Assembly: GCF_003254295.1 (NCBI RefSeq)
Contig: NZ_QKZO01000009.1
Location: 1 to 47,842 of the forward strand
DNA from: Rhodobacter capsulatus
GTDB lineage: Bacteria; Pseudomonadota; Alphaproteobacteria; Rhodobacterales; Rhodobacteraceae
Direction of reading: 5' to 3'
DNA: 47,842 nucleotides
Positions within the stretch are counted from its first letter, which is position 1. Each line of letters starts with the position of its first letter. This document shows, in pieces, positions 19,285 to 44,385 of this stretch. The notes under the pieces were generated by a model that saw only the letters and a list, made by a program, of their open reading frames with translations, searched no databases and was not told the origin of the DNA. The position numbers and the translations under genes were made by a program.

Positions 19285-20055
19285 TTACTTGCCCAGGTCC
19301 GGCCAGACGCAGTCGATCCCGAAAGCGGTGCAGAAGCGCTCGTAATCCGGCTGCATGATGTGAAACAGCCGGTCATAGGTCGCCTGCGAGATGTCCTTCA
19401 GCGTCGACTTGTTGCTGTGCTTGATCTCGACGAAGCTGTCGTCCCAGATCGGATCGACGCCGACATGTTCGAACATCCGCCGCACCGTCGTTTTCGGATC
19501 GTTGCGCAGTTGCGTGTTGTCGATCACCAGCAGCCGCTCGCCGAAGATGCCCGCGAATCTTTGCGCCTTCGCCATGTAGAGGCTGAAGCCGATGATATGC
19601 ATGTAGTTGCTTTGAATGGCGCCGATGCCCGGCATCATCTTTGCAAGGTCGCGGCCGAAGAACATGTCTGGCGACATGTCCATCAGCGCGGGGATCTTGT
19701 TGACCACCTGCAGATGCCGGAAATGCGAGATCGCCCGCTCGATCGGGTTGCGGGTGATCAGGATCAGCCTGCCCTGCGGGTTGTACCGGTCGATCAGCCG
19801 CGGCATCAGCGGCGTGTTGCAGGCGTCGAAATAGGTCGGGCTGGCATCGACATAATGCTGCCCGGCGGGCAGGCCCTCGAAATGGCGGTGATACCAGTCG
19901 TCGCCTTCCGCATAGTTCAGTGAGAAATAGTGGATTTCCTTCTGCGTGCCCGAATGGATCTGCGGATGTTCGGTCAGGATGCGGTGCAAGGCGGTGGTCC
20001 CGCCCTTCATCGTGCCGATGATGAAGATGTCGGGGCGGTTGATGGTCTGAGTCAT
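19285..20055 (-). CDS. PAPS-dependent sulfotransferase
   Basis: A 256-residue cytosolic sulfotransferase that would move sulfate from PAPS to a hydroxyl of a sugar or glycan. The 5'-phosphosulfate loop is GTMKGGTTAL (residues 14-23) and the 3'-phosphate motif is TRNPIERAISHF. YVDASPTYF between them is typical of the heparan-sulfate/NodH-like group. ATG 20055 (MTQTINRPDIF) is the first good start; the frame further upstream is unlike coding. It follows the giant sulfotransferase/glycosyltransferase gene by 139 bp on the same strand, which points to a sulfated polysaccharide as substrate. The acceptor is not known. Confidence 0.88.
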   Translation of the reverse strand: MTQTINRPDIFIIGTMKGGTTALHRILTEHPQIHSGTQKEIHYFSLNYAEGDDWYHRHFEGLPAGQHYVDASPTYFDACNTPLMPRLIDRYNPQGRLILITRNPIERAISHFRHLQVVNKIPALMDMSPDMFFGRDLAKMMPGIGAIQSNYMHIIGFSLYMAKAQRFAGIFGERLLVIDNTQLRNDPKTTVRRMFEHVGVDPIWDDSFVEIKHSNKSTLKDISQATYDRLFHIMQPDYERFCTAFGIDCVWPDLGK

Positions 20056-20194
20056 GCTGGTTTGCCTTGATCTGCCGCTGCGACGCGGAGGGCGAGGGGG
20101 CGGGTCAGCCCCCCGGCGGTCCGGATGCCGTGCTGGAGGAGATGGGGCGCAGACGGATCTGCGCCGGTCGATTGCGGACAAGCCGCGAGAGGGG

Positions 20195-23100
20195 TCATGC
20201 TTTCCCCGATCCGGTCAGGCCGAATTGCACGGCAAGCTCCGCGATATAGTCCGCGGCCTTTTGCTGTTGCGCGGCGCCAAGCCCGTGCCGGGCCAGGATG
20301 TCGCGTTGCACGGCCTCGATCTCGGCCAGTTGCCTCGCGTCAAAATTCGAGATCGTGACGCTGTTCTGATGCCGCCGGTGGATGTTCTTCGAAGCGGTGT
20401 TGAAGGCGATCCCGCCGCGTTCCAGCAGCCACAGATAGACCAGCCAGTCACCGACGAAGCGCACCGATTCCAGCTCGGCGCGATGCTCGGTCAGAACCGA
20501 TTTGAGCGCCCCGGCCGCCATCACCACCCCCGAGGCATTCGGGATCGTGTTCTTCAGATAGAGCACCTCGGAGATTTCCTCGGCGCCGTCGCGGCAATAG
20601 TTCTGCGCCCAATGCGTCGGGCTGATCTTGTCGGTGTAGTAGCGGTAATTCGCCGCCAGCGGCGTGCCGTTCTCGTCGATCTGCGCCGAGTCGGTATAGG
20701 AGAGCACCGTCCCCGGCTTCTCGAAGCCGCGCATCGCGGTGGAGAGGAAATCGGGCTCGGCCAGATCGTCGGCCTCGGCGATCCAGACGTAATCGCCCTG
20801 CGCCAGATCCAGCCCCTTGATCCATTGCCGGAACACGTTGCCCGAGTTGACCGCGTTCGGGACGATGCGGATCGGCCGTTCGCAGCGCGCGGCAAAGGCG
20901 CGGATGCGCTCCAGGCTGTCATCGGTGGAGCGGTCGTCAAGCACGATGATTTCGTAGATCGGGAAATCCTGCGCCAGAACCGACTGCAGCCGGTCCTCGA
21001 TGTAACGGCCATAGTTGTAATTCGGCACGACCACCGTGACCCGCGGCACATGCCGACCCGACAGGCGCAGCAGATCCAGCGTGTATTTGGTGAAATCGGC
21101 CTCGGCCTCGATGTAGTCGCGCGCGGCGGCGACCATCTGGCCGCGCCGCTCGGGGTGGTCGATCAGGCTTTCCACCGCCTGCGCCATCCCGGCCGGATCC
21201 TGACCGCCGACGGCCAGCGCCAGACCGCGCTCGGCCAGCACTTCGCAGCCGGTGGTGCCCGCGAACATCACGCAGGGCAGCCGGGCCGCCATCGCCTCCA
21301 GCACGACCGAGGGGAAGGGATCCTCGCGCGAGGACAGCAGGAACACGTCCGAGGCGGCATAGAAGGGGACCGGATCCTGTTGCCGACCCAGGAAGCGCAT
21401 GTGGTCGGCCACGCCCAGATCGCGGGCCAGCGCCTCGATCTGCGGCAGGAAATGGATGTCGGCGTGACCGATCCAGATCGCCTCGACCTTGCGGCCGAGC
21501 TCGCGCAGACGCGCCAGCGTGCGCACGAAAAGATCGCCGCCCTTGCGGTGATCGACATAGCCCACACCCAGAAGCAGCGTCGTGTCCGCGTCGATGCCCA
21601 GCTCGGCGCGCAGCCGGGCGCGATGCTGCGCCAGCGCGTCCGAGGAGGCGAGCTCGTGCAGGTAAAGCCCCTGCGGCCGCACCTGCGCCCGCGGCAGCGA
21701 CCGGCCCAGATAGGTCTCGAACTGCGCCTGCACCAGCGGCGCCGGAAAGACGATCTGATCGGCATGATCGGCGGCCAGCGTCATCTGGTGCCGCAGGTTC
21801 ATCTGATCATAGACCGAGGCCATCTCGTGGATCAGCGCCACGGTGCGATAACCCGCCTCGCGCAGCATCGGCAAGATCTCGGCGCTGACGGTGGTGTTGA
21901 CGATCGCCACCTGCGCGTCTTCGGTGCGCAGCCGCCGCAGCAGGCGGATGCTGTTCTCGCCCGCCAGCGCCGGATCGTCGAGCACGACGACCTGCGCATA
22001 TTGCGCATATTGCGTCACCATCTGCCCGCCCTGCAGCAGGACGATCGTCACCTTGAAGCCGTTTTGCGCGTAGTTGCGCGCCAGGTTCAACAACAGGATC
22101 TGCGCCCCGTGCGGATGCGCGTCATGGCCGACCAGCGTCACCATGCGCGGCACTTCGACCGGGTTCAGCGCCGCCCGCGAGGCCTCCAGATAGGCATAGC
22201 CATATTTCGTGTCGGGCTCGAGATGCGCGCCCTCGGCCCATTCGTTCCAGGCATTGACGAAGATCACCCGCTCGTCCGGGGTGCGGGCATCGGCCAGCGT
22301 CCGGGTGACGGCGTTTTCCAGCCAGATCCGGTATTCGGCCGGGTTCGAATTGGCAAAGATCGCGCCCTTGTTCTTGCGCCGGGCGGTGTTGTCCCAGGAC
22401 GGGCAGACCGAACGGAAAAGCTTGTAGTCGGGCATCGGATAATTGCGCGAGCGTTCGACATAGGACCGCCAGTCATAGATGATGCCCTCAAACTCGGGCG
22501 AGAGCCCCGGCACGCGGTCGGTCAGATTGTCGGGCGCATAGTTGTTGGGCGGGAATTCCACCGCCGCATCAAAGCCGTAGTCCGCCGGATCGACGGTTTC
22601 GAAGCTTTGCGGATAGGCCAGATAGATCTCGCCGACGCCGTTCTTGCGGCACCAGTCGCGCCAGCGTGCCGAGGTCTCGGCGACGTTCGGCATCAGGCTC
22701 GGGCGATAAAGCAGGATCAGCGGCTTGCCGTCGATGCGGATGTAGCGCGGATCGCGCAAATAGGGCGCCAGCTCGGTGATGAAGTCGAGATCGTCTTGCG
22801 GGCTGTGGTTTTGCGAGATCAGCAGTTCCTGATCCAGCCCGTCCCAGCGCCGCGACCAGTTCTCGTTCGCCCAGCAGATGCAGAAGGGGAAATCGAGATC
22901 GGGATTGTCCAGCCAGTTCCGCACCGGCTTTTCCAGAAGACGCTTGCCGCCGAACCAGTACCAGTAGAAGCAGAAGCCGCCGATGCCGTAAAGCTGCGCC
23001 AGCTCGATCTGCTTGCGCTGCACATCGGTATCCAGAAGGTTGTATTGGCCCAGTTCCGGCACCGGCTCGTGCGGCTGGTGATGGCCGGGGAATTGCGGTT

Positions 23101-25879
23101 GCGCCGGGCCGACATTCGTCCATTCGGTGAAGCCTTTGCCCCACCAGGCGTCATTTTCCGCAATGGCGTGGAACTGCGGCAGGTAGAAGGCGATCAGCCG
23201 CGCCTTCGGATGGCTCAGATCGGTGATCTGACGGCGCGGAACGAAGGTGTTCGTCTCGGAGATCAGGACCGGCGCCGCCGGTTCCGGGGCGACCGCTGCG
23301 ACAGGCTGCGGCTGTTCGGTGACGGGGGCGGGTTCCGGGGCGGCGACGGGTGCCGTGACGGGCAACGCGACCGGGGCGGGGGCCACGGGCTGGGGCACCG
23401 GCTGGAACTGCGCCTGTTGCCGCTGGATCGCCTGCAGCTGCGCCGCGACGGCCTCGCGTTCGCGTTTCGCCTCTTGCCAGGCCTGATAGAACTGCGTGCT
23501 GCCCAGAAGGAAGCCGGTCTTGCTCAGCACCCTGTCCTTGAAGCGCAGCTTGCGCGCCATCGGCACCGGCAGGTAATGCCAGACGAACCGTGCCGTCGCC
23601 GAGACCGTGCGTCGGCTGTGGCGGTTGATCCAGCGCGCGCCGGTCACCACCACCCGCATCGGCGCGGTGATCCGCCACGAGGTGCTGGAGCGCAGCATCG
23701 CGATCGTCGTCTCGTGCTGGGCGATCACCCGGTCCAGATGCGCGATGTGGTGATAAAGCGCCTGCATCTGCACATGGTTCTGCTCGCGCTCGCCGATCAG
23801 CTGCGTGTCGCGTTCATGCAGCAGCGCCTGCACATGCGCCAGCTCTCCGGCGCGGGCCTGCAATTGCTGCAGGATGTCGGTGCGGTCGGCCAGGGTCTGG
23901 TCCAGCCGCAGGCTCCGCTCGGTCAGCTGACTGCGGGTCTCGGTCAGTTGTCCATGCGCCTCGGCCAGATGGTCGCGCGTTTGCGCCAGCTGGCCGCGGG
24001 TCTCGGTCAGCTGGCCGAGCGTGTCCGTCAGCCGGTCCCGGGTCTGCGTCAGCGCGCCGTTGCTCTCGGTCAGCTGGTCGTGGGTCTCGGCGAGCTGATC
24101 GAAGGTGTCGGAAAGCTTCGTGCGGGTCTGGTTCAGCTCCTCCCGGGTTTCCGAAAGCTGCGCGGAGGTGTCCGAAAGCTTGACGCGGGTTTCGGTCAGC
24201 GCGTCACGGGTTTCGATCAGCCGGCCCTGGGCCTCGGACAGCTGTTCGCGGGTTTCGGTCAGCCGCCCGCGGGTTTCGGTCAGCGCCTGCTCGGCCGTGG
24301 CCAGCCGGGCGACCAGCTCGTCGCGCTCGGCCTGCAGATGCTCGATCTGGGTCTGGCTGGCCGCCAGCTTCGCCTCGAGATCGGCCAGACGCAGCATCAG
24401 ATCCTGTTCCAGCTGCCACCGTTCGGTCTCGAGGCGGCTGCGTTCCGCCAGACCGGCTTCCAGCTTCGCCCGGGCCTCCGTCAGCTGCTCCTCGAGCTGG
24501 GCGATGCGGGCCTGTGTCGCCTCGTCGCGCAGGCCATGCTCGGCAGAGCTTTCCTCAAGCCGCTTCGCCGCATCGTCAAGGCGTTGCTGCAGCATCTGGC
24601 CGGTGCTGCCAGCTTCCGCCAGCCGCGCATTCAGCGCATTGATCTCCTTGACTTTTTCGCTCAGAAGGCTTTGCGCCTGCATCAGCTCGTCGGTGCGCAT
24701 CCGCACCGCATTCTCGCGTTCCGCCAGACGCGCGCTCAGATCCGAGATGAAGGATTCGTTCTTGCGGTTCAGCTCGGCAACCGTGCTGTGCAGCTCCCAG
24801 ATGCCGCCGACATTGCGGGTCATGTCCTCGTAACGGACCTGCAGGTCGAGATGCTCGTGTTCCAGCGTCCGCAGCGTCGTCTGCACCTGCGCCAGCATCC
24901 GGTCGGCGTCGCGCTGGGTCGGCAGCGTCAGGCGTTCCATCTCGTCAAGCTGCGCGCGCAGCCCGTCAAAGGCGGCCATCACCTCGGCCTTGTTCGGATC
25001 GGCGCAAAGATCGGCCAGCGCGCGATAGATCGTCAGCGCCATCCCGGCGGTATAATCGATCGCTGCCAGCGTGCCGGTGTCGCCCGCATGGTGGCGGTGT
25101 TCGTCCGAGATGAAGGAATCCGCCTCTTCGGCGATCTCGTCGATCCGGCTCAGCCGGTCCAGCCGGACATCGCGGCTGATCCGCAGCAGTTCCGCCGCCC
25201 AGTCGGCCATCAGATCGGAATAATCGACGAAGCTGCGCGGCAGGCCGCGGCTGAAGCGTTCCGCGTCCAGCACATGGCGGATCCACATCAGCACGCCGCG
25301 GCGCAGCGCGATGCCGTCCCGCGCCTCGAGCGACTGCGCCACTTCCAGCGGATTGCGATAGGGAACCAGGATCCGGGTCTCGAAGCCCTCGTCGGCCAGC
25401 GCCGCAAGCATCGGCGGCGCCAGACGGCAGGAGCGCGGCTCCTTCAGCACGAGGCTGGAGCGGCCGCCGAGTTCCGTCCGGGCCCAGGATTGCAGCGCGG
25501 TCTGATAGCCCGACAGCGTGTCCTTCGGGATGGCGTCGAAGTCGATTTCGGACCAGTCGGACCAGTCGCTGCCGATCCGGTTCAGGAAGGACTGGTTGAG
25601 ATCGATCAGGAACTGCGGTTCCCAATGCCCGGTCTTGTTGCCCTCGTTCGCGCCCAGCAGATTGCCGGGCAGGGCATAGCCCGCGATGTTCAGCAGCCGG
25701 GTCAGCATGCTGGTGCCGGAGCGGTGCATGCCAAGGACAAGAAGGCAGATCGGGGTCGTGCTTTGGGTCTTGCGCCTGCGTCCGGTCGAAGAGTTGGCGG
25801 CCTGAACCGGCCGACGCGAGGCAGTGGATTTTACCGGAATTGCAGCGTTTCCGACATTCTTTGGCCCAAGGTTTTTCAT
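20195..25879 (-). CDS. Giant sulfotransferase - coiled coil - WbsX - GT4 - GT2 fusion protein
   Basis: An 1894-residue protein with at least four enzyme-like modules. Residues ~44-300: sulfotransferase-like domain with P-loop LGMHRSGTSML. ~300-730: coiled coil including 18 exact heptads, ending in SSTSWRITAPMR, a motif often seen beside glycosyltransferases. ~818-870: Pro/Ala/Val linker. ~890-1235: WbsX (PF14307-type) domain with IAFYLPQFHAI, GFTEWTNV, FCICWANENWSRRWDG and FVNAWNEWAEGAHLEPD. ~1243-1603: GT4 glycosyltransferase with GVGYVDHRKGGDLF and SSREDPFPSVVLEAMA. ~1610-1894: GT2 with VVVPNYNYGRYI, VLDDRSTDDS and AEADDLAEPD. ATG 25879 is chosen for AAAGG upstream. It probably builds and sulfates repeat units of the polysaccharide exported by the adjacent Kps system, at the inner face of the membrane. 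Domain calls are strong; the joint function is inference. Confidence 0.9.
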   Translation of the reverse strand: MKNLGPKNVGNAAIPVKSTASRRPVQAANSSTGRRRKTQSTTPICLLVLGMHRSGTSMLTRLLNIAGYALPGNLLGANEGNKTGHWEPQFLIDLNQSFLNRIGSDWSDWSEIDFDAIPKDTLSGYQTALQSWARTELGGRSSLVLKEPRSCRLAPPMLAALADEGFETRILVPYRNPLEVAQSLEARDGIALRRGVLMWIRHVLDAERFSRGLPRSFVDYSDLMADWAAELLRISRDVRLDRLSRIDEIAEEADSFISDEHRHHAGDTGTLAAIDYTAGMALTIYRALADLCADPNKAEVMAAFDGLRAQLDEMERLTLPTQRDADRMLAQVQTTLRTLEHEHLDLQVRYEDMTRNVGGIWELHSTVAELNRKNESFISDLSARLAERENAVRMRTDELMQAQSLLSEKVKEINALNARLAEAGSTGQMLQQRLDDAAKRLEESSAEHGLRDEATQARIAQLEEQLTEARAKLEAGLAERSRLETERWQLEQDLMLRLADLEAKLAASQTQIEHLQAERDELVARLATAEQALTETRGRLTETREQLSEAQGRLIETRDALTETRVKLSDTSAQLSETREELNQTRTKLSDTFDQLAETHDQLTESNGALTQTRDRLTDTLGQLTETRGQLAQTRDHLAEAHGQLTETRSQLTERSLRLDQTLADRTDILQQLQARAGELAHVQALLHERDTQLIGEREQNHVQMQALYHHIAHLDRVIAQHETTIAMLRSSTSWRITAPMRVVVTGARWINRHSRRTVSATARFVWHYLPVPMARKLRFKDRVLSKTGFLLGSTQFYQAWQEAKREREAVAAQLQAIQRQQAQFQPVPQPVAPAPVALPVTAPVAAPEPAPVTEQPQPVAAVAPEPAAPVLISETNTFVPRRQITDLSHPKARLIAFYLPQFHAIAENDAWWGKGFTEWTNVGPAQPQFPGHHQPHEPVPELGQYNLLDTDVQRKQIELAQLYGIGGFCFYWYWFGGKRLLEKPVRNWLDNPDLDFPFCICWANENWSRRWDGLDQELLISQNHSPQDDLDFITELAPYLRDPRYIRIDGKPLILLYRPSLMPNVAETSARWRDWCRKNGVGEIYLAYPQSFETVDPADYGFDAAVEFPPNNYAPDNLTDRVPGLSPEFEGIIYDWRSYVERSRNYPMPDYKLFRSVCPSWDNTARRKNKGAIFANSNPAEYRIWLENAVTRTLADARTPDERVIFVNAWNEWAEGAHLEPDTKYGYAYLEASRAALNPVEVPRMVTLVGHDAHPHGAQILLLNLARNYAQNGFKVTIVLLQGGQMVTQYAQYAQVVVLDDPALAGENSIRLLRRLRTEDAQVAIVNTTVSAEILPMLREAGYRTVALIHEMASVYDQMNLRHQMTLAADHADQIVFPAPLVQAQFETYLGRSLPRAQVRPQGLYLHELASSDALAQHRARLRAELGIDADTTLLLGVGYVDHRKGGDLFVRTLARLRELGRKVEAIWIGHADIHFLPQIEALARDLGVADHMRFLGRQQDPVPFYAASDVFLLSSREDPFPSVVLEAMAARLPCVMFAGTTGCEVLAERGLALAVGGQDPAGMAQAVESLIDHPERRGQMVAAARDYIEAEADFTKYTLDLLRLSGRHVPRVTVVVPNYNYGRYIEDRLQSVLAQDFPIYEIIVLDDRSTDDSLERIRAFAARCERPIRIVPNAVNSGNVFRQWIKGLDLAQGDYVWIAEADDLAEPDFLSTAMRGFEKPGTVLSYTDSAQIDENGTPLAANYRYYTDKISPTHWAQNYCRDGAEEISEVLYLKNTIPNASGVVMAAGALKSVLTEHRAELESVRFVGDWLVYLWLLERGGIAFNTASKNIHRRHQNSVTISNFDARQLAEIEAVQRDILARHGLGAAQQQKAADYIAELAVQFGLTGSGKA
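23906..24283 (-). repeat. 18 uninterrupted heptad repeats in the giant protein
   Basis: Eighteen 21-bp units code heptads of the form L-T/S-E/D-T-R-x-Q/R (for example LTETRGR, LTETREQ, LSDTFDQ), with Leu at the first place of every one and no skip. At DNA level the units still share the core CGGGT(T/C)TCGGTCAG on the plus strand, so they arose by tandem duplication. Such tracts form long straight coiled coils and can change length by recombination. Confidence 0.9.
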
Positions 25880-26018
25880 GCTTTGCCTTTGCTGTAATTC
25901 CGATTTTCGGGCGTGCGGCAACTGTATCCGGCTTGAAATCGGGTGTAACGGGACCGGGCACGCCGTCAAGCCTGTTTGCGTCATCGCAGCGCCGTTCCGC
26001 GCTGCTTTGCCCTGAGTT

Positions 26019-26822
26019 TCAGCGTTCCGAAAGGATTTTGCGGTGGTGGCGATGCAGCAGGATCATCCCCAGCGCGCCGATCAGCAACGACACCCCGTAA
26101 ACGTAGATCTCGGACACGTAAACGGCGTCATAGGTGTCATAAATCCCCTTGCGCATCATCATGACGACATGGGTCGGCGGCACCAGCAGGCTGATGGTCC
26201 GCACCGGCTCGGGCATGTTGTCGATCAGGAACAGCACCCCCGCCACGAGGAACATCGGCCGGTTCAGCACCGCCCAGACCATCTGCCAGGCCGGAAAGGT
26301 GCTCATCAGATAGCAGTTCAGCAGCCCGACCGCGGTGCCAAGCGCGATCAGCATGCCCCAGGCGCGGCCAAGTGCCGGGAAATTCAGGTTGATCTGGCTG
26401 TGCTGCGTCGCGATGGCGACGGCGATGACGATGGCGAAGACCTGCAGCTGTGTCAGCGTGGTCAGGATCAGCCGCGCCGCGATGGCGTCGACATAGGTCA
26501 CGCTCGGATAGGCCAGCAGCGCCTTGGAAAAGCGGATCGACATCGCGACGTTGATCGAGATCGCGTTATAGCCGGTCAGCGTCAGATACCCGCTGGCGTA
26601 GAACAGGATGAAGCTCTGCCCCAGCGGCGGCTGGTGCACGATCATCGAGAACACCACCGAGAGCAGCGCGATCGCCGCCACAGGTTCCGCGACGGTCCAG
26701 AAATAGCCGCCGATGGACTTGCCGTAGGTCGTCGTCATCTCGCGCAGGATCAGCGCGAAGACGGCGCGGGCGCCGATCAGCCTGCCCCGGTTGGTCCGGA
26801 CGGAAACTGCGGCTTTTGCCAT
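26019..26822 (-). CDS. kpsM: Capsule polysaccharide ABC transporter permease (KpsM/Wzm type)
   Basis: A 267-residue inner-membrane permease of the ABC-2 family that carries lipid-linked polysaccharide across the inner membrane with KpsT. It shows REMTTTYGKSIGGYFWTVAEPVAAI, the usual N-terminal segment before the first membrane helix, and six hydrophobic segments ending in VYGVSLLIGALGMILL. ATG 26822 has GGAGG about 8 bp upstream. It is divergent from kpsE (26881) and lies 139 bp before the giant glycosyltransferase gene on the same strand. A possible promoter on the minus strand is TTGCAA (26881-26876), 17 bp, AATTCT (26858-26853). Separation of kpsM from kpsT onto opposite strands is unusual. 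Confidence 0.92.
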   Translation of the reverse strand: MAKAAVSVRTNRGRLIGARAVFALILREMTTTYGKSIGGYFWTVAEPVAAIALLSVVFSMIVHQPPLGQSFILFYASGYLTLTGYNAISINVAMSIRFSKALLAYPSVTYVDAIAARLILTTLTQLQVFAIVIAVAIATQHSQINLNFPALGRAWGMLIALGTAVGLLNCYLMSTFPAWQMVWAVLNRPMFLVAGVLFLIDNMPEPVRTISLLVPPTHVVMMMRKGIYDTYDAVYVSEIYVYGVSLLIGALGMILLHRHHRKILSER

Positions 26823-26880
26823 GGAAACGGGCCTCCGAGGGGGGATTCAGCGAGAATTCCCTAGTGCTTTTTCGCTTGCA

Positions 26881-28134
26881 ATGCGAGGGACAAATAACCA
26901 TGAGTTGCGTCACCTCGATGGCGCGACGGGAGTAAGGGCGATTAACAAGCAGCTGTCGGAAGCGGCCGATGCCGCGGTGAAACGCGCACCGAAGCCGATC
27001 CCAAATCCGGCTGCGGCAAGGCCGCGGTTCCGGCACAAGGTTCTGTTGTCCAGCTTTGTCCTGGGTGTCGTCGCCCCGACCGTTCTGGCCGTCGTCTATC
27101 TGTATCTGATCGCCGCCGATCAATATGCCTCGAAAGTAGGCTTCACCGTCCATTCCGAAGACATGAGTTCCGCCGGCGCGCTGCTGGGCGGGCTGTCGAT
27201 GCTGACGCAAAGCAGCTCCTCGGATGCCGAGGTGATCTACGAATTCATCCAGAGCCGCACCCTGGTCGAGCGGATCAACCGCAAGATCGATCTGGCGCAG
27301 GTGTTTTCGCGTCCCGCTTTCGATCCGGTCTTCACCTATGACACCGACGGCACGATCGAGGATCTGGTCGACTACTGGCAGCGGATGGTGCGGATTTCCT
27401 ATGCCTCGAACAGCGGCCTGATCGAAGTCGAGAGCCGCGCCTTCACCCGCGAGGATGCGCTGGCGATCGCCCGCGAGATCGTCGCGGAATCGACCGCGGT
27501 GATCAACGAGATGTCGGCGATCGCCCGCGAGGATGCCACCCGCTACGCCCGCGAGGAACTGGCCGTGGCGATCGAGCGGCTGAAACAGGCCCGCGAGGAA
27601 CGCACCCGGTTCCGCTCGAAGACCCGATTGATCGATCCGGCGGCGGATGTGCAGGGGCAGATGGGGCTGATGACCTCGCTCGAGCAGCAGCTGGCGCAGG
27701 CCTATATCGATCTGAACCTGACGCTGGAAACCTCCTCGGGCGACGATCCGCGGGTGTCGCAGTCGCGCCGCCGTATCGACGTGATCCAGACCCTGATCGA
27801 ACAGGAAAAAAGCAAGTTCGGCATGGGGGACACGGAAAACCCCGATGTGGAATCGCGCGAGGATTACCCGACGCTGATGGCCGAATACGAGCGGTTAAGC
27901 GTCGATGTCGAATATGCGAATTCGGCCTATCTGGCGGCGATGGCCTCGCTCGATTCTGCCAAGGCCGAGGCGCAGCGGCAAAGCCGCTATCTGGCCAGCT
28001 ACACGACCCCCTCGATGGCCGAGGCCGCGACCTATCCGCAGCGCGGTCTGATTGCCGGGCTGACGGCGGTGTTCCTGACGCTGGCCTGGTCGATCTGCGT
28101 GCTGATCTTTTACAGTCTGCGCGACAGGCGCTGA
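26881..28134 (+). CDS. kpsE: Capsule export inner-membrane co-polymerase protein (KpsE/BexC/CtrB type)
   Basis: About 417 residues with one membrane segment near the N-terminus (VLLSSFVLGVVAPTVLAVVY) and one near the C-terminus (GLTAVFLTLAWSICVLIF), and a long periplasmic helical part in between: the layout of PCP-3 proteins that link the ABC exporter to the outer-membrane channel. LYLIAADQYASKVGFTVHS directly after the first segment is typical. The start is unsure. ATG 26881 has no ribosome site; an ATT at 26941 has GGGAG 8 bp upstream and would give 397 residues. kpsT begins 4 bp after its stop. Confidence 0.88.
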   Translation: MRGTNNHELRHLDGATGVRAINKQLSEAADAAVKRAPKPIPNPAAARPRFRHKVLLSSFVLGVVAPTVLAVVYLYLIAADQYASKVGFTVHSEDMSSAGALLGGLSMLTQSSSSDAEVIYEFIQSRTLVERINRKIDLAQVFSRPAFDPVFTYDTDGTIEDLVDYWQRMVRISYASNSGLIEVESRAFTREDALAIAREIVAESTAVINEMSAIAREDATRYAREELAVAIERLKQAREERTRFRSKTRLIDPAADVQGQMGLMTSLEQQLAQAYIDLNLTLETSSGDDPRVSQSRRRIDVIQTLIEQEKSKFGMGDTENPDVESREDYPTLMAEYERLSVDVEYANSAYLAAMASLDSAKAEAQRQSRYLASYTTPSMAEAATYPQRGLIAGLTAVFLTLAWSICVLIFYSLRDRR

Positions 28135-28138
28135 GCCG

Positions 28139-28822
28139 ATGATCGAGCTGCGGAACCTGAACAAGACCTTCCGGCTGAACGGGGTGTCGAAGACAGTGGC
28201 GCGCGACATCAACTTCGTCTTTCCGACGGGCGAGGCGGTGGCGCTTCTGGGCGGCAACGGCGCGGGCAAATCCACCATGCTCAGCATGATCGCGGGCACG
28301 GTCGAGCCGGACAGCGGCGAGGTGCTCTCGGACGGGTCGGTGTCCTGGCCGATCGGCTTTGCGGGCAGCTTTCACGGCGATCTGACCGGGGCGCAGAACG
28401 TGCGCTTCATCGCCCGCGTCTATGGGATCGACACCGACGAGGCGATCCGCTTCTGCCGCGATTTTGCCGATCTGGGGCAGCATTTCCACCTGCCGACGCG
28501 GACCTATTCCTCGGGGATGCGGTCCCGGCTGGCCTTTGCCATGTCGATGGCCGTGCCCTTCGACACCTATCTGATCGACGAGGTGATGTCGGTCGGCGAC
28601 ACCTCGTTCAGGACGAAGTGCCAATCCTTCATGCAGGAGCGGCTGAAGACCTCGAGCGCGATCATCGTCTCGCACCAGTTTGGGGAACTCAAGCGGCTCT
28701 GCGTCTCGGGGGTCTATCTGGAGGGCGGGCAGCTTTACTACTACCCCGAGGTCGGCCAGGCGATCGAGCATTACCAGAAGGCGATGCAGCGCAATGGCGC
28801 CCGGACGCCCGGCGGCGTCTGA
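28139..28822 (+). CDS. kpsT: Capsule polysaccharide ABC transporter ATPase (KpsT/Wzt type)
   Basis: A 227-residue ATPase that powers export with KpsM. Walker A GGNGAGKS, signature YSSGMRSRLAF (the KpsT form of LSGGQ), Walker B TYLIDEVMSVGD and switch His in IIVSHQF. There is no C-terminal sugar-binding domain, so export does not depend on a Wzt-type cap reading. It starts 4 bp after kpsE and is probably translated with it. Confidence 0.95.
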   Translation: MIELRNLNKTFRLNGVSKTVARDINFVFPTGEAVALLGGNGAGKSTMLSMIAGTVEPDSGEVLSDGSVSWPIGFAGSFHGDLTGAQNVRFIARVYGIDTDEAIRFCRDFADLGQHFHLPTRTYSSGMRSRLAFAMSMAVPFDTYLIDEVMSVGDTSFRTKCQSFMQERLKTSSAIIVSHQFGELKRLCVSGVYLEGGQLYYYPEVGQAIEHYQKAMQRNGARTPGGV

Positions 28823-28922
28823 GATCCGTTGCCGATCCGCGGTCCCGGGCGTGCGCCGGTCTGCGGGCATCTTTACCTTCCCGCGGGAAAGCTGGGGCCT
28901 TTCATCACCCGCGGAGATCACC

Positions 28923-30038
28923 ATGGCCGATCAAACCCCGCTTCTGGGGCTGCCCCTCATCCTGCCCTCGCAGGCGCAAAAGCACGTCACCCACAACGAG
29001 GCGCTGAGCCTGCTCGATGCGATCGTGCAGCTGGCCGTGCTGGACCGGACGCTGACGGTGCCGCCCGCCTCGCCGCAGACCGGCGACCGCCACATCGTCG
29101 CCGCGGGCGGGGCGGCGGCCTGGACCGGGCAGGACGGGGCGGTGGCGCTCTGGACCGGCAGCGGCTGGCTGTTCGCGCGCCCGCAGCCGGGCTGGACGGC
29201 GCGGGATCTGTCGGACGGGGCCCTGCTTCTGTTCGACGGCAGCAGCTGGGATCTGGCCCCGGTCGAGACCGACAACCTGCCCGGGCTGGGCATCAACACC
29301 AGCCATGACGCCACGAACCGGCTGGCGGTCCAGGCCGCGGCGACGCTGCTCAGCCACGCGGGCGCGGGGCATCAGCTGAAGATCAACAAGGCCCTGCCCA
29401 CCGATACCGCAAGCCTGCTGTTCCAGACCTCCTGGTCGGGCCGGGCCGAGATGGGCACGGCGGGCAGCGACAGTTTCGCGATCAAGGTCAGCGCCGACGG
29501 CACGGCCTGGAAGACCGCGTTCAGCTTTGCCGGGGCGACGGGGCTGGTGTCGGGCCTGGCGGTGCAGCAGTCGCGGACCGATGTCACGGCGGGGCGGCTG
29601 ATGCGGGCGGATTGGGGCTACGGGCCGGGCAATCTGCTGGGCACGGTGGCGCAAAGCGCGGGCGTGCCGACGGGGGCGGTGCTGGAGCGCGGCACGACCA
29701 CGAACGGCGAGTACATCCGTTTCGCCGATGGCACGCAGATCTGTTTCGCGCAGCGCACGCTCGGCTCAATCATCGCGCAGGGCGCGGGGTCTTTTGCCGC
29801 GCCCTACCGGACCGCCGATTTCGGCTGGACCTATCCCAAGGTCTTCGTCGCCGCGCCGGTGGTGACCTGCCGCGGCGTGGCGCCGACCGGCCTGACCCAG
29901 GACCGGCGTCTTTGCACGGGCTGCGTCGGCGATCTGGACGCCACGGCGGCGACGGGCATCCATGTCGTGCGGCTGGGCAGCGCCGCCAATGCCGATGTCT
30001 TCAAGGCCGATCTGATCGCCATCGGCCGCTGGGTCTAA
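28923..30038 (+). CDS. DUF2793 domain protein
   Basis: A 371-residue protein. The first ~100 residues are the DUF2793 domain (LGLPLILPSQAQKHVTHNEAL, then LDRTLTVPPASPQTGDRHIV), known from phage and gene-transfer-agent tail or fibre proteins and from surface proteins of Rhodobacterales. The rest is Gly/Ala/Thr-rich and beta-like, with FAVT-type fibre sequences and a C-terminal part WTYPKVFVAAPVVTCRG that resembles fibre or sugar-binding tips. No signal peptide is seen. ATG 28923 has GGAGA 5 bp upstream. It follows kpsT by 100 bp. Its stop codon overlaps the stop of the convergent GT2 gene. Link with capsule binding or modification is inference. Confidence 0.8.
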   Translation: MADQTPLLGLPLILPSQAQKHVTHNEALSLLDAIVQLAVLDRTLTVPPASPQTGDRHIVAAGGAAAWTGQDGAVALWTGSGWLFARPQPGWTARDLSDGALLLFDGSSWDLAPVETDNLPGLGINTSHDATNRLAVQAAATLLSHAGAGHQLKINKALPTDTASLLFQTSWSGRAEMGTAGSDSFAIKVSADGTAWKTAFSFAGATGLVSGLAVQQSRTDVTAGRLMRADWGYGPGNLLGTVAQSAGVPTGAVLERGTTTNGEYIRFADGTQICFAQRTLGSIIAQGAGSFAAPYRTADFGWTYPKVFVAAPVVTCRGVAPTGLTQDRRLCTGCVGDLDATAATGIHVVRLGSAANADVFKADLIAIGRWV

Positions 30039-30955
30039 AGCCGCCGCAGCAGCGCCCCGGCATAAAGCGACAGCTGCCCGCGCAGGCCTTGCCGGTAAAA
30101 GCCCGCGCGGCGGATCGCGGCCAGGCTTTGCAGCGGCGGCAGGGCGCGGGCGCGTTCAAAGGCTGCCAGCAGGGCGCGGTTTTCCGGCGTCAGCAGATCC
30201 TCGATCGTCCGCAGCGCGGCGATGTTGCGTTTGCACCAGTCGGAAAACCGCCCCGTCACCAGCATATGCGCCCGAACCAGCGTCGCCAGCGCGCCGCGGT
30301 TCGCGCCGATCACATTGCCCTCGTGCTGACGGTAAAGCAGATGCGGCGTGTTGTCGAAGATCACCCGGCCGCCGATGCCGGTGATCACCTGATAGATCCA
30401 CCAGTCATGGATCACCGTATCGGTGGTGCGCAGCGCGGCGGCACGGATCGCCTCGGCCCCGGCGCGGTTGAGCACCATCGTATTGCCGCCCGCGATGTTC
30501 TGCACCAAAGCATGGGCAAAAGAGGCGGGCCGGGGGGCGCCGCGCGACAGCCGGTGCCCGGTCAGGTCCTCGTTCACCTCGAAGGAGCGGCCGCAGTAAA
30601 GCGCCGGTTGTCCGTCGGACAAAGGCGCCAGCGCCGCCGCCGCGACCCGCAGCTTTTCCGGCAGCCAGACATCATCCTGATCGGAAATCGCCCGCAGATC
30701 GGTTTCGATCGGCAGGCGCAACAGCGACAGGAAATTCTGCGCCGCCCCGGCCCGCGGCCCGGCCCGCAGCGTCACGGCGATCTCGGGATGGGCGGCGGCC
30801 CAGCCCGTCAGCACCTGCACCGTCGCATCGGTCGAGCCGTCGTCGCTGACGATCAGCCTTGCGGGCACAAGGCTTTGCGCCGCGAAACTGTCGAGCTGCG
30901 GCCCCAGCCGGGTTGCGCCGTTCCAGGTCGCCATCAGGATCGTGACCGAGGCCAC
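30035..30955 (-). CDS. GT2 glycosyltransferase, probable rhamnosyltransferase
   Basis: A 306-residue inverting family 2 glycosyltransferase. N-terminal VTILMATWNGA, nucleotide-sugar motif VSDDGSTDATV and metal motif ISDQDDVWLPEKL are typical of the rhamnosyl branch (RfbF/WbbL-like). HDWWIYQVITGIGG in the second half is also common there. The start is GTG at 30955, with GAGGGG just upstream and 6 bp after the rfbA stop, so it ends the dTDP-rhamnose operon. Together this points to transfer of rhamnose to a lipid-linked glycan at the inner membrane. Donor is inferred from context. Confidence 0.88.
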   Translation of the reverse strand: MASVTILMATWNGATRLGPQLDSFAAQSLVPARLIVSDDGSTDATVQVLTGWAAAHPEIAVTLRAGPRAGAAQNFLSLLRLPIETDLRAISDQDDVWLPEKLRVAAAALAPLSDGQPALYCGRSFEVNEDLTGHRLSRGAPRPASFAHALVQNIAGGNTMVLNRAGAEAIRAAALRTTDTVIHDWWIYQVITGIGGRVIFDNTPHLLYRQHEGNVIGANRGALATLVRAHMLVTGRFSDWCKRNIAALRTIEDLLTPENRALLAAFERARALPPLQSLAAIRRAGFYRQGLRGQLSLYAGALLRRL

Positions 30956-30961: not shown

Positions 30962-31837
30962 TCACCCTTCCAGCAGCTTGCGCAGATAATCGCCGTAATC
31001 GTTCTTGCCGAACAGCTTCGCCCGGGCGCGCAGGCCCTCGGCATCGATCCAGCCGCGTTCAAAGGCGATCTCGTCCGGGCTGCCGGTCTGCAGGCCCTGC
31101 CGTTTTTCCAGCGTGCGGACGAAATTGCCCGCATCCAGCAGGCTGCCATGCGTGCCGGTGTCCAGCCAGGCATAGCCGCGGCCCATCGGACAGACGCGCA
31201 GGCTGCCCTCGGCCAGATACATTTCCAGAAGCGTGACGATTTCCAGCTCGCCCCGCGCCGAGGGCGTGACCTTGCGGGCGCGTTCGGGGGCGCTGCCATC
31301 GAGGAAGTAAAGCCCGGTCACGGCAAAGTTCGACGGCGGCACCGGCGGTTTTTCGATGATCGCGCGGACCTTGCCCTCGGTGTCGAAATCCACCACGCCA
31401 TAGCGCTCCGGATCGGCGACGCGATAGCCGAAGACGGTGCCGCCCGCCGCATGGGCATCGGCCTCGGCCAGCAGCGCCGACAGCCCGTGGCCGAAAAAGA
31501 TGTTGTCGCCCAGCACCATCGCCGAGGGGGCGCCATCGAGGAACTCCTCGGCCAGGATATAGGCTTGGGCCAGACCGTCGGGCGAGGGCTGCGCGATATA
31601 GGTCAGGCGGAGACCCCATTGCGACCCGTCGCCCAGCGTGCGCTTGAACTGCTCCTGATCGATCGGCGTGGTGATGATCGCGATCTCGCGGATCCCCGCC
31701 AGCATCAGCACCGAGAGCGGATAATAGACCATCGGCTTGTCATAGATCGGCAGAAGCTGCTTCGAGACGCCGATGGTGATCGGGTAAAGCCGCGTGCCCG
31801 AGCCCCCGGCCAGAATGATGCCCTTGCGTGTCGTCAT
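30962..31837 (-). CDS. rfbA: Glucose-1-phosphate thymidylyltransferase RfbA (RmlA)
   Basis: A 291-residue enzyme making dTDP-glucose from dTTP and glucose-1-phosphate, the first step of dTDP-L-rhamnose synthesis. It has the nucleotide motif ILAGGSGTRLYPIT, KQLLPIYDKPMVYYPL, VLGDNIFFGHG and EKPPVPPSNFAVTGLYF. Length is normal. ATG 31837 lies 1 bp after the rfbD stop with GGAGA inside rfbD, so translation is coupled. Confidence 0.98.
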   Translation of the reverse strand: MTTRKGIILAGGSGTRLYPITIGVSKQLLPIYDKPMVYYPLSVLMLAGIREIAIITTPIDQEQFKRTLGDGSQWGLRLTYIAQPSPDGLAQAYILAEEFLDGAPSAMVLGDNIFFGHGLSALLAEADAHAAGGTVFGYRVADPERYGVVDFDTEGKVRAIIEKPPVPPSNFAVTGLYFLDGSAPERARKVTPSARGELEIVTLLEMYLAEGSLRVCPMGRGYAWLDTGTHGSLLDAGNFVRTLEKRQGLQTGSPDEIAFERGWIDAEGLRARAKLFGKNDYGDYLRKLLEG

Positions 31838-31838
31838 C

Positions 31839-32684
31839 TCAAATCTCCAGTTCTTTCAAAACCTTGGAAAGACCCGCCTGCCAGTCGGGCGGGGCGATGC
31901 CGAAATCGCGCGTCAGCGCCGCGCAGTCCATCCGGCTGTTGAGCGGGCGCAGCGCAGGCGTCGGATAGGCCGCGGTCGGAATCCCCGTCACTACCACCTT
32001 GCGGCCCGAAAGCGCAAAGATCTCGCGGGCGAAATCGGCCCAGCTGACCCAGGGGCTGCCGCCGAAATGATAGGTGCCGCCGGGCTGTCCGGCGACCATC
32101 TTCCGCGCCATGACGACCAGCGCCGCCGCGATGTCGGCCGCGGGGGTCGGACCGCCGATCTGGTCCTCGACCACGTTCAGCGCATCGCGGCTTTCGCTCA
32201 GCCGCAGCATGGTTTTCACGAAATTCGCCCCATGTGCGGAAAACACCCAGGAGGTGCGCAGGATCGCCGCAGCGCCCCCCGCCGCGCGGACGCCCTGTTC
32301 CCCGGCCAGCTTGCTGCGGCCATAGGCATTTTGCGGCGCCACCGGATCGGTCTCGACCCAGGGCGCGCTGCCCGCGCCGGAAAAGACGTAATCGGTCGAG
32401 ACATGCAGGAAGGGGATGCGCTTTTGCGCCGCCGCCCGGGCCATCGCCGCGGGGGCCTCGCCATTCACCACCGTCGCCGCGGCTTCCTCGGCCTCGGCCT
32501 TGTCCACCGCGGTCCAGGCGGCGGCATTGATCACCGCCGCGGCGTCGCTGTCGCGGATCGCGGCCGCGCAGGCCGCCGGATCGGCAAGATCGGCCTGCTC
32601 GCGTCCCAGAAACACGGCCTGCGGCAGCTGGCGTTGCAGCTCTGTCGCGACCTGACCTGTCCGACCAAACACGAGAACCTTCAT
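31839..32684 (-). CDS. rfbD: dTDP-4-dehydrorhamnose reductase RfbD (RmlD)
   Basis: A 281-residue short-chain reductase for the last step of dTDP-L-rhamnose synthesis. It has the dinucleotide motif VFGRTGQVATEL, VINAAAWTAVDKAE, STDYVFSG and the catalytic YGRSK. ATG 32684 (MKVLVFGRTGQ) overlaps the stop of the upstream sulfotransferase reading frame as ATGA. The long open frame before it is a shadow. Confidence 0.97.
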   Translation of the reverse strand: MKVLVFGRTGQVATELQRQLPQAVFLGREQADLADPAACAAAIRDSDAAAVINAAAWTAVDKAEAEEAAATVVNGEAPAAMARAAAQKRIPFLHVSTDYVFSGAGSAPWVETDPVAPQNAYGRSKLAGEQGVRAAGGAAAILRTSWVFSAHGANFVKTMLRLSESRDALNVVEDQIGGPTPAADIAAALVVMARKMVAGQPGGTYHFGGSPWVSWADFAREIFALSGRKVVVTGIPTAAYPTPALRPLNSRMDCAALTRDFGIAPPDWQAGLSKVLKELEI

Positions 32685-33309
32685 TTCAAGCCCCTGACCC
32701 GAGTGTTGAGACGCATGTCGAGCCCGTCGAACAGACCCGGCTGACCGATCGCCCGCGCGAAGGCGGGCAGGATGTCGCCCTCTTCGGCGCAGATCCGGTC
32801 GTAATCCAGCACCACCGGCGTGCCGATCCCCTGCCAGAAGGCCAGGATCGCCGCGGTGTCGTAATACCAGGCGCCATCGGCGCTTTGATCGTCGGGCAGC
32901 GCCTTCTGGGCCTCCCAGGAACCGGTCTTGCGCAGTTGATCCGCGCAAAGGCCGGGGCCAGCGCGGATTTCAGCGCAAAGGCTTCAAGCGGCGTATGCAG
33001 CAGACAGAATTCTTCGCTGCTGATGACCATCTCCGGGGCGGTCCCGCGCGCGGCGGCGATCTTCGCGGGAACTGCGGCGAGCCGGGCCAGATCGGGCAGC
33101 GGCTCGCCATAGTTCCCCCGCGGCGTCGAGCGGATCTCGGGGCGCAGGAAGGTGTTGGCAAGGGCCCAGGCAATCGCTTCGGGATGAACCGCGACCCCCG
33201 CTGCCCGCAGCCGGGCGGCGGAAAGCTGCAACGCCCGCTGGATCGAGGTCGTCCCGGTCTTGTGGGTGCCGACATGCAGCCAGAGCGTGCCCGTTCCCGC
33301 GTGGTTCAC
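32681..33309 (-). pseudogene. Frameshifted sulfotransferase-like gene inside the rhamnose operon
   Basis: GTG 33309 overlaps the rfbB stop (GTGA). The first ~120 residues have LHVGTHKTGTTSIQRAL, the PAPS P-loop of sulfotransferase-like proteins, and EMVISSEEFCLLHTP. Near 32945 the frame must change to keep protein-like sequence: the other frame then reads DQLRKTGSWEAQKALPDD, DGAWYYDTAAILAFW and VVLDYDRI to a TGA at 32681 that overlaps the rfbD ATG. The 629-bp span is not a multiple of three. The sum (~210 residues) is short, and the 3'-phosphate motif (R-x6-S type) expected between the halves is missing. An internal deletion of perhaps 30-40 codons with frameshift fits best; a sequencing error would not explain the lost motif. 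Both ends keep coupling overlaps, so the break is probably recent. Confidence 0.75.
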
Positions 33310-34355
33310 CCCTTGACCCCCAGTCGCTGGCCGACGCCATCGCGGTCCTGCAGCGCCCGCCACCAGCTCTCATTGGCCAGATACCAGTCGACGGTGCGTT
33401 CCAGCCCCTCTTCGACCGTGACCGAAGGCCGCCAGCCCAGTTCGGTGCGGATCCGCGTCGGGTCGATCGCGTAACGGGCGTCATGGCCGGGGCGGTCGGT
33501 GACGAAGGTGATCTGATCGGCATAGCTGCCCGCGGCCTTCGGGCGCTTGCGGTCGAGGATCTCGCAGAGCGTGCGGACCAGTTCGAGGTTTGTGCGCTCG
33601 TTCTCGCCGCCGATGTTGTAGCTCCGCCCGACCGCGCCCTTTTCGACCACGGTCAAAAGCGCGTCGGCGTGATCCTCGACATAAAGCCAGTCGCGGATGT
33701 TCGAGCCGTCGCCATAGATCGGCAGCGCCTTGCCCGCCAGCGCGTTCAGGATGATCACCGGGATCAGCTTTTCCGGGAAATGGAACGGCCCGTAATTGTT
33801 CGAGCAATTGGTAAGCAGCACCGGCAGGCCATAGGTCTCGTGCCAGGCGCGGACCAGATGATCCGAGCCCGCCTTCGAGGCCGAATAGGGGCTGCGCGGA
33901 TCATAGGGCGTGTCTTCGGTGAATTTCACGGACGGGTCATGCGGCAAGGACCCGAAGACCTCGTCGGTGGAGATGTGATGGAAGCGGAAACTCTCGGGAC
34001 GGCCGCGGTTTTCCCAATACTGCCGGGCAGCCTGCAGCATCTGATAGGTGCCCATCACATTCGTCTCGATGAAGACGCCCGGCCCGTCGATCGAGCGGTC
34101 GACATGGCTTTCCGCCGCCAGATGCATCACCGCATCGGGCTGGTGGCGGTCCAGAATGGCGGCGATCGCGGCGCCGTCGCGGATGTCGGCCTGCTCAAAC
34201 GCATAAAGCGGCGCGCTGGCGACCGAGGCCACGTTGTCAAGACAGGCGGCATAGGTCAGGGCATCGACATTGACCACGGCATGACCGCGCGCGATCGCCA
34301 GACGCACCACCGCGGAGCCGATGAACCCTGCCCCCCCGGTCACGAGAATCTTCAT
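33306..34355 (-). CDS. rfbB: dTDP-glucose 4,6-dehydratase RfbB (RmlB)
   Basis: A 349-residue SDR enzyme that turns dTDP-glucose to the 4-keto-6-deoxy form. It has the NAD motif [15 protein letters not shown] at the N-terminus, STDEVFG with the catalytic Asp-Glu, and [12 protein letters not shown] with the catalytic Tyr/Lys. Normal length. ATG 34355 (MKILVTGG) is used; an ATG four codons upstream (MEFAM...) is possible. It follows rfbC by 87 bp, which hold a perfect hairpin. Confidence 0.97.
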
Positions 34356-34398
34356 GGCAAATTCCATTTCTTCTGGTTTGAACAGGCTTACTTGCGCA

Positions 34399-34428
34399 GA
34401 TTGCAAAGGACAACCGACCTTTGCAATC
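34399..34428. promoter_or_regulatory. Perfect 11-bp inverted repeat between rfbC and rfbB
   Basis: GATTGCAAAGG and CCTTTGCAATC flank an 8-base spacer. On the mRNA it forms a stable hairpin without a T-run, 15 bp after the rfbC stop. It could be an RNA processing or stability element or a partial attenuator; a dimeric repressor site is also possible because of the size and symmetry. Confidence 0.6.
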
Positions 34429-34442: not shown

Positions 34443-35006
34443 TCAGCCCTGCCAGGTGAAGGCGCTGTCGAAACCGGCGATCCGCCCCGCGACCGCATCC
34501 TTGGCCGAGAGCACCGGTTCCAGATCGCCCATGCCCCAGTCGATGCCGATATCGGGGTCGTTCCAGATCAGCGCGCCCTCGGTTTCCGGGTGATAATAGT
34601 CCGAGCATTTGTAGATGATCTCGGTTTCCGGCGCGCGGGTGACGAAGCCATGCGCGAAGCCCTTGGGCACCAGCAGCTGACGGCCGTTTTCAAAGCTCAG
34701 CTCGGCGCCGAACCACTGCCCGTAGGTGGGCGAGCCCTTGCGGATGTCGACCGCGACATCGAAAAGACAGCCCTTGCCGCAGCGCACCAGCTTGTCCTGC
34801 GCATGCGGGGGGGTCTGGAAATGCAGGCCGCGGATCGTGCCCGGGGTCATCGACAGCGAATGGTTGTCCTGCACGAAGACGGTGTCGATCCCGTGCTCGG
34901 CCAGCGCCTTGGCCGAGTAGCTTTCGGAGAAGAAGCCCCGGTGGTCGCCGAAGCGGCGGGGGGTGATCAGTTTGACGCCGACAAGCGGCGTGTCTTCGAC
35001 GAGCAT
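34443..35006 (-). CDS. rfbC: dTDP-4-dehydrorhamnose 3,5-epimerase RfbC (RmlC)
   Basis: A 187-residue cupin-type epimerase for the third step of dTDP-L-rhamnose synthesis. It has RGFFSESYSAKAL, the catalytic His in IRGLHFQTPPHAQDKLVRC, VDIRKGSPTYGQW and YKCSDYYHPETEGALIWND. Normal length. ATG 35006 has GAGGA 5 bp upstream. It is the first gene of the rhamnose operon; the promoter should be in 35007-35090. Confidence 0.97.
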   Translation of the reverse strand: MLVEDTPLVGVKLITPRRFGDHRGFFSESYSAKALAEHGIDTVFVQDNHSLSMTPGTIRGLHFQTPPHAQDKLVRCGKGCLFDVAVDIRKGSPTYGQWFGAELSFENGRQLLVPKGFAHGFVTRAPETEIIYKCSDYYHPETEGALIWNDPDIGIDWGMGDLEPVLSAKDAVAGRIAGFDSAFTWQG

Positions 35007-44371: not shown

Positions 44372-44385
44372 GCTTCCGCACCGTT

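Follow-up and report, generated by a model that had tools for sequence, protein, structure and literature searches.

A sulfotransferase as candidate terminator in a proposed single-chain polysaccharide polymerase with a coiled-coil ruler, encoded beside a Kps-type exporter in Rhodobacter capsulatus

What is the role of a protein that joins a sulfotransferase-like domain, a long coiled coil, a WbsX domain and two glycosyltransferase (GT) modules in a single chain next to a Kps-type exporter? The question is raised by a gene on the minus strand at positions 20195-25879 of a 47,842-nucleotide stretch of Rhodobacter capsulatus (contig NZ_QKZO01000009.1; the whole stretch is called the window below). 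On balance we favor the reading that this chain polymerizes a surface polysaccharide, measures its length and terminates it, with the sulfotransferase as terminator, and that an ATP-binding cassette (ABC) transporter exports the product. Its plan and module order, with the terminator N-terminal, the coil in the middle and the GTs C-terminal, match those of WbbB and ORF6-O7 of Klebsiella pneumoniae, which supports this reading. The parts of the gene are listed from N- to C-terminus, with residues in the numbering of a 1929-amino-acid (aa) frame; GH99 stands for glycoside hydrolase family 99 and PSB for phosphosulfate-binding site.

20195-25879, minus strand: full gene, sulfotransferase - coiled coil - WbsX/GH99-like - GT4 - GT2 (open reading frame and Pfam)
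24935-25768, minus strand: N-terminal domain of ~278 aa (residues ~73-350) with a sulfotransferase fold, candidate chain terminator (AlphaFold, Foldseek, PF13469 in relatives)
25709-25732, minus strand: 5'-PSB or P-loop, GMHRSGTS, identical in 10/10 orthologues
25319-25357, minus strand: 3'-PSB-like region with Arg210 and Ser218, invariant in 10/10 orthologues
23687-24931, minus strand: coiled coil, candidate ruler, 415 aa, residues 352-766, first ~90 residues modeled as a single helix
23918-24284, minus strand: 21-bp tandem array, 17.5 copies, coding for coil heptads
23435-23686, minus strand: SxSWRxTxPxR motif and basic, partly amphipathic post-coil segment, candidate membrane or recruitment segment
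22181-23197, minus strand: WbsX module PF14307 (E 3e-133), GH99-like barrel with NEWAEG, residues 930-1268
21095-22147, minus strand: GT4 module, residues ~1280-1630 (PF00534, E 7e-23)
20405-21049, minus strand: GT2 module, residues ~1646-1860 (PF00535, E 1e-22)

The 1929-aa frame (20195-25984) opens at the first in-frame ATG, at 25984, and a start at Met36 (25879) gives 1894 aa. The frame of the R. viridis orthologue opens only at the Met36 equivalent, which favors the shorter product. Orthologues were picked by a match along the whole query, and a single frame was no precondition of that search. Ten were full-length: the window protein and three others of its genus, one from Aliiroseovarius sediminis and five from Paracoccus, that is, several per genus and not ten independent events. 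Among 17 other genomes of the same genus examined, three carried such an orthologue; one of these genomes we take to be, very probably, that of R. capsulatus SB1003, a strain well suited to laboratory work. All ten orthologues were single frames, in three genera and in separate assemblies. The chain is not split in these related genomes, an outcome that the earlier note had named as refuting, and the idea that a frameshift or an assembly fusion of separate genes created it finds no support among the ten, is already refuted and retains a negligible probability. Modules were found on separate proteins only in two distant loci, L081 (sulfotransferase and coil in a 452-aa protein, WbsX in another of 755 aa; L and G numbers are our own handles) and L096 (a WbsX-GT4-GT2 protein of 1490 aa without a P-loop and a P-loop protein of 401 aa), and six further loci from the same search matched WbsX or a GT module only. 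Identity to the window protein within the set of ten was 40-77% for the sulfotransferase, 69-98% for WbsX, 48-97% for GT4 and 62-96% for GT2. The key residues, whose loss the earlier note had named as a second refuting outcome, are retained in the ten orthologues, including the P-loop, the 3'-PSB and the GT4 and GT2 catalytic motifs.

The N-terminal domain is the part on which the proposal turns. GMHRSGTS, together with an Arg and a Ser eight residues apart, was invariant in 10/10 orthologues; we take these motifs to be the 5'- and 3'-PSB. GxHRSGTS, the Arg/Ser pair, NxxGxxE and KxPR were also invariant across 20 aligned sequences down to 24% identity. Invariance of the P-loop in this larger set is partly built in, because the sequences were chosen partly by that motif, and the fair test is the set of ten orthologues picked by whole-length match. 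PF13469 was matched at E<=0.01 by 17 of the 20 aligned relatives, and relatives L086 and L098 exceeded its cut-off. Structure prediction, which the earlier note had proposed for the chain, was carried out on this domain and recovered a sulfotransferase fold. The AlphaFold model, which includes ~90 coil residues, had a pLDDT (predicted local distance difference test) of 87.8, and sulfotransferases made up 16 of the 20 top Foldseek matches against the PDB (the other four being P-loop kinases and PezAT) and all four of the matches at E<=0.001. A search of the N-terminal profile against PDB sequences gave coil-region matches only, at E 0.065 or worse, so that the assignment rests on motifs, Pfam matches in relatives and fold. 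An APS (adenosine 5'-phosphosulfate) kinase gene is present in the window's genome. By motif and model, the N-terminal domain is a predicted sulfotransferase fold with intact cofactor motifs, and sulfotransferase is the only recognized enzyme in the terminator position.

The same motifs bear on a different view, in which the N-terminal domain and the coil mainly form a scaffold that ties the polymerase to KpsMT and have little or no sulfotransferase activity, as has been proposed for KfiB of the Escherichia coli K5 capsule. KfiB is called a 'putative sulfotransferase' (PMC13171606) and is reported to stabilize the KfiA-KfiC complex, to give more uniform chains and to interact with KpsM and KpsT (PMC12834895), and its deletion leaves cells capsule deficient (PMC4366286). 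KfiB also contains coiled stretches, the longest of 76 aa by our coil detector, a simple heptad rule and not a published predictor, on which the counts for the relatives, the gap blocks and the WbsX frames given below also depend. However, an inactive scaffold has no need of P-loop and 3'-PSB residues that are invariant in all ten orthologues, and KfiB differs from the window protein in having no intact P-loop, no polymerase modules and no detectable homology to the window domain. As a candidate homologue KfiB was rejected: it has no GxHRSGTS, no Pfam sulfotransferase match at E<=1 and an hhalign probability of 0.5% in the profile comparison. We regard the scaffold explanation as rather improbable. 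As a separate observation, the two assemblies of E. coli Nissle 1917 that were compared (L103, L104) differ in this region: kfi genes lie between kpsS and kpsT in NZ_CP022686 and are missing in NZ_CP007799, perhaps because of an assembly gap or a strain difference.

The coiled coil is the length-variable part of the protein. In the ten orthologues the catalytic modules were constant in length within 1% (sulfotransferase 278-279, WbsX 338-339, GT4 348-351 and GT2 215 aa), with coils ranging from 96 to 556 aa: 96 in Aliiroseovarius, 179-215 in Paracoccus and 395-556 in Rhodobacter, including the 415 residues of the window protein. If fully helical, these coils would span 14 to 82 nm, and that of the window protein ~62 nm. 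In pairwise comparisons of the four Rhodobacter-genus proteins, 12 of 18 gap blocks in the coil were multiples of 7 residues, with ~2.6 expected; the corresponding binomial figure of 6e-7 overstates the significance, because pairs share events and the blocks are not independent. The remaining six blocks (4, 4, 22, 22, 22 and 150 residues) reject a strict heptad rule and leave whole-heptad change as a tendency. The 21-bp array that codes for coil heptads has 17.5 copies in the window, and two R. capsulatus-type genomes have 26.7 and 31.0. Such differences in copy number among related genomes also make the array a possible slippage-driven length switch. Behind the coil, the basic segment carries a net charge of +11 to +15 over 74 residues in the ten orthologues; at the corresponding place WbdD has a membrane-associated helix and a site that recruits the polymerase (PMC11231755). 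It was previously suggested that the protein could build and sulfate glycan units on one scaffold in a fixed order. To us the coil resembles a device for measuring length more than one for imposing such an order.

The WbsX module also requires a different label. It was correctly recognized in the earlier note, and its family is named as a glycosyltransferase; however, its 26 best Foldseek matches were all GH99 enzymes (best E 3.4e-9, identity to the module 17% at most), and its NEWAEG aligned to the NEWHEG of GH99. The catalytic pair of GH99 enzymes is EW[H/G]E (PMC11025385), and the two Glu residues are present here as EWAE. On its modeled fold, the module is best described as GH99-like and is not an established glycosyltransferase, which leaves GT4 and GT2 as the only clear glycosyltransferases of the chain; these two probably form the polymerase. 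The module shares fold and EWxE pair with GH99 endo-alpha-mannosidases and mannanases, and differs from them by its fusion to glycosyltransferases. The family name of PF14307, 'Glycosyltransferase WbsX', looks misleading and is in itself no evidence of such a function. The family is uncommon, occurring in 9 of 385 genomes of the class. Three more genomes of the class have the order WbsX-GT4-GT2 behind different N-termini (L022, L026, L096), which suggests an independent cassette. From other genomes, 11 WbsX frames were recovered (15 loci were listed and four were not recovered), and all of these lack GxHRSGTS. No title in the WbsX and GH99-like literature searches pointed to a GH99-like module in such a chain, a topic for which no dedicated search was made.

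These features allow for the idea that the GH99-like module sets the length by cleaving or transferring chains, with sulfation being unrelated. The module keeps its EWxE pair, ranks first or close to first among the modules in conservation (69-98% identity) and lies ~1.2-2.4 kb from KpsM in three of five further WbsX genomes (G432, G451, G598). This idea leaves the coil unexplained, and the described GH99 enzymes act on alpha-mannosides (PMC11025385), with no mannan indicated at this locus; we consider it very improbable.

How far is such an architecture new? The earlier note knew of no described protein of this plan. A terminator, a coiled-coil ruler and a polymerase in one chain have in fact already been published for WbbB of K. 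pneumoniae O12, and a similar chain with one GT separate for ORF6 of O7 (PMC11231755). In these systems the terminator lies at the far end of the coil, only chains that reach it are capped, and a carbohydrate-binding module (CBM) on the transporter ATPase is given for all terminated O antigens described (PMC11231755). WbbB shares with the window protein the single chain, the N-terminal terminator, the coil, two C-terminal polymerase GTs and ABC-dependent export, and differs in its beta-Kdo (3-deoxy-D-manno-oct-2-ulosonic acid) transferase terminator, in its three GT modules, which founded families GT99, GT102 and GT103, in that no GH99-like module is described for it, and in belonging to systems whose transporter ATPase has a CBM. 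ORF6-O7 likewise has an N-terminal terminator, a coil and two C-terminal GT modules, and a rhamnose-containing product; its terminator is a methyltransferase-kinase with a predicted CBM, both of its GTs are GT2, and a further GT is separate. In WbdD/WbdA of E. coli O9a (K. pneumoniae O3), a coil also stands between terminator and polymerase and its length determines chain length, but the system consists of two proteins and the cap is a methyl-phosphate; all of these comparisons follow the same source (PMC11231755). Finally, a study of E. coli group 3 capsules describes 'putative methyltransferases' with variable-length coils in Kps clusters (PMC13171606), which implies that such proteins also occur with Kps exporters, there with a methyltransferase and not a sulfotransferase. 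Of the features that mark ruler/terminator systems, the window protein has the catalytic domain at the far end across a coil and the GT modules within the chain, and its exporter ATPase has no CBM. We therefore do not file it as a full member and describe it as a variant that probably works like one. What looks new is the sulfotransferase in the terminator position. Full-text searches, which covered neither alternative spellings nor most of the subscription literature, found no description of a sulfotransferase as a chain terminator.

On this basis the following mechanism may be proposed. The C-terminal GT4 and GT2 would extend the chain at the membrane, with dTDP-rhamnose from the adjacent rml genes probably among the donors. 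The GH99-like WbsX module may work on this glycan too; it might be a transglycosylase or confer specificity. The length of the coil would fix how far away the N-terminal sulfotransferase is held, so that the growing end would be sulfated only once the chain reaches the sulfotransferase, and sulfation would stop growth. The product would then be exported by the neighboring Kps-type ABC transporter. The activities of the modules, sulfation at the non-reducing end and a chain length dependent on the coil are what we infer from this arrangement, and we consider sulfation more likely at the chain end than throughout the polymer.

If the sulfotransferase and the coil form a terminator unit, they might be expected in other contexts. 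A match to the N-terminal domain at E 1e-10 was found in 19 of 248 genomes of the family, the window's included, giving a set of relatives of 22 matches outside the window in 18 genomes. A coil of at least 80 aa was present in 16 of the 22 relatives vs 8 of 81 other long, coding-like open reading frames of the same regions. Five of the 22 have their C-terminus 20-24 residues from where an SxSW[RK] motif begins and are candidates for stand-alone proteins of the WbdD type, which they resemble more than they do the single-chain systems. Other relatives run on into polymerase modules, namely GT2-GT4 in L098 and GT4-GT2 in L085, and L086 continues into GT2-RgpF. Occurring alone or joined to varied GT modules, the sulfotransferase-coil pair behaves as a unit that is combined with different polymerases. 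Among the loci inspected, L053, L054, L081, L082, L083 and L084 contain stand-alone sulfotransferase-coil proteins that end after SxSW[RK]xTxP, and these are candidate WbdD-like terminators.

The genes that surround the protein are as follows.

19285-20181, minus strand: second, separate sulfotransferase (PF13469/PF00685), next gene downstream
26019-26822, minus strand: KpsM-type ABC permease (PF01061; NF050053 E 6e-18, below cut-off)
26791-28134, plus strand: KpsE-type inner-membrane export protein (TIGR01010 E 1.6e-58, below cut-off)
28139-28822, plus strand: ABC ATPase of 227 aa, assigned to the KpsT type from its position and size, no CBM
28680-30038, plus strand: DUF2793 protein of the tail-fibre family of RcGTA, the R. 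capsulatus gene transfer agent (PF10983 E 3e-31; true start probably near 28.9 kb)
30035-30955, minus strand: GT2 glycosyltransferase
30962-31837, minus strand: rmlA (TIGR01207 above cut-off)
31839-32948, minus strand: rmlD (TIGR01214 above cut-off)
33306-34406, minus strand: rmlB (TIGR01181 above cut-off)
34443-35048, minus strand: rmlC (PF00908 E 3e-69)

The location next to a Kps exporter, as read in the earlier note, was borne out: the KpsM-type gene is the next one upstream, the KpsE-type gene and the KpsT-type ATPase gene follow divergently, and the five-module chain beside them, with its conserved catalytic motifs, is real. The best NCBIfam matches of the KpsT-type ATPase were teichoic-acid, galactan and Vi export ATPases, all below their cut-offs. 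Judged by their sequences, the products of rmlA, rmlD, rmlB and rmlC together provide a route to dTDP-rhamnose; a frame at 32984-33523, considered for rmlC, had no NCBIfam match, and rmlC is the gene at 34443-35048. Neighbor counts within 10 kb, here and below, were read by eye from positions, and the chance expectations are our own estimates. A KpsM homologue was found no more than 10 kb from the gene for the N-terminal domain in 8 of 25 genomes, with ~0.1 expected by chance; these are the four window-type loci together with G011, G016, G451 and G505, and in G505 the coil has only 52 aa. KpsC and KpsS (PF05159) were not found in the window; matches lie on contig C1 at 306-311 kb, and in the 19 kb around them (L101, G000 C1:298000-317000) none of the KpsM, KpsE and KpsT proteins of the window had a homologue at E 1e-5. 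A second KpsE-like gene is present in the same genome at C1:136671.

The second sulfotransferase recurs with the protein. It was found near the orthologue in seven of eight named loci, and in P. lutimaris it shares one frame with it, the 2251-aa chain extending into the second sulfotransferase and an AlgX-like domain. Relatives of this second enzyme are fused to an AlgX-like SGNH domain in L034 and L096, and such a domain follows in L036; the glycan may therefore also be acetylated.

Several of our observations weigh against the reading that we favor. PF13469 scored 16.8 bits (E 0.0083) in the window protein against a gathering score of 27, missing the Pfam cut-off, and the fusion relatives L080 and L085 had no Pfam sulfotransferase match at E<=0.001. 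The fold match was modest (best E 1.9e-4, template modeling (TM) score 0.33, with the coil helix included in the query). GxHxSGTS, found in 20 of the 22 relatives, was absent from two; L090 has this motif with Trp in place of the Arg; six of the 22 have no coil of 80 aa by the simple detector; and the helical stretch of L086 may be TPR-like, as one aligned member matched TPR_2. The 10 kb around the five Paracoccus orthologues contained no homologue of the window's exporter genes except ABC ATPases of 23% identity in two of them. Wzt_C was found in one of 21 genomes searched, which was not the window's genome; with a KpsT-type ATPase that has no CBM, any recognition of a cap by the exporter would have to work differently from that in the Klebsiella systems. 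In addition, a separate sulfotransferase next door means that sulfation at this locus need not be terminal.

The last two points also favor the strongest competing explanation, in which the enzyme sulfates internal residues along the polymer and the coil, as a flexible tether, lets it reach many sites; chains would then have no terminator, and something else would set their length. With a second sulfotransferase near the orthologue, sulfation may be a general decoration, and a KpsT without a CBM would not read a cap in the usual way. However, neither the predominance of whole heptads among the length changes nor the occurrence of stand-alone proteins whose end lies close behind the coil would be predicted for a tether, and in the described coil systems the terminator is at this end (PMC11231755). 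We consider the tether explanation possible, though doubtful, and continue to favor the sulfotransferase as a terminator at the end of a ruler.

A further question is what the exported glycan might serve. A DUF2793 gene directly follows kpsT and is the sole DUF2793 copy in the window's genome; the genome that we take for that of SB1003 carries two. DUF2793 was present in all 25 genomes searched; in 10 of these, no more than 10 kb separated it from a sulfotransferase-coil gene, with well under one expected by chance. These ten comprise six of the window's genus, four with the synteny of the window, and one each in four other genera. The RcGTA tail fibre rcc00171 carries DUF2793 (PMC8265664), and the genes for the RcGTA head spikes likewise adjoin those for the capsule that the spikes bind (PMC10218006). 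This other capsule is bound by the tail fibre as well, which goes against a simple view of one fibre and one ligand, and strains without the capsule still bound ~20% and ~55% of the tagged fibre, with lipopolysaccharide named among possible further receptors (PMC10218006). The capsule genes given for RcGTA in the same source are rcc01081-rcc01086, rcc01932 and wza/wzb/wzc (rcc01958-rcc01960) (PMC10218006). The possibility that the window contains this published receptor locus was rejected, and the published genes are taken as a different system. The tail fibre may have a further ligand in the product of the present locus. The full combination, namely a single terminal sulfate placed by a coil ruler that evolves in 21-bp steps, recognition by the exporter without the usual CBM, and a glycan to which the gene transfer agent tail fibre encoded next to kpsT binds at the cell surface, is put forward as a tentative and rather unlikely proposal.

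Two other groups of genes in the window lie outside these subjects. A protein with RTX calcium-binding repeats and a type I secretion set (HlyD, ABC and outer membrane efflux proteins) are encoded at 35091-37868 and 40953-45726 (minus strand), near the polysaccharide genes. A large protein with bacterial Ig-like repeats (Big_13, Big_6) is encoded at 45737-47842 (minus strand) and runs off the window edge.

In this study, we describe a five-module protein of R. capsulatus that may control the length of a surface polysaccharide by sulfation of its end. The DUF2793 neighbor points to a specific candidate for a further receptor of the RcGTA tail fibre besides the capsule. If our reading is true, the groups that terminate ABC-exported bacterial glycans would include sulfate beside methyl, methyl-phosphate and Kdo, and control of chain length would be predicted for other Rhodobacteraceae that have the sulfotransferase-coil unit.

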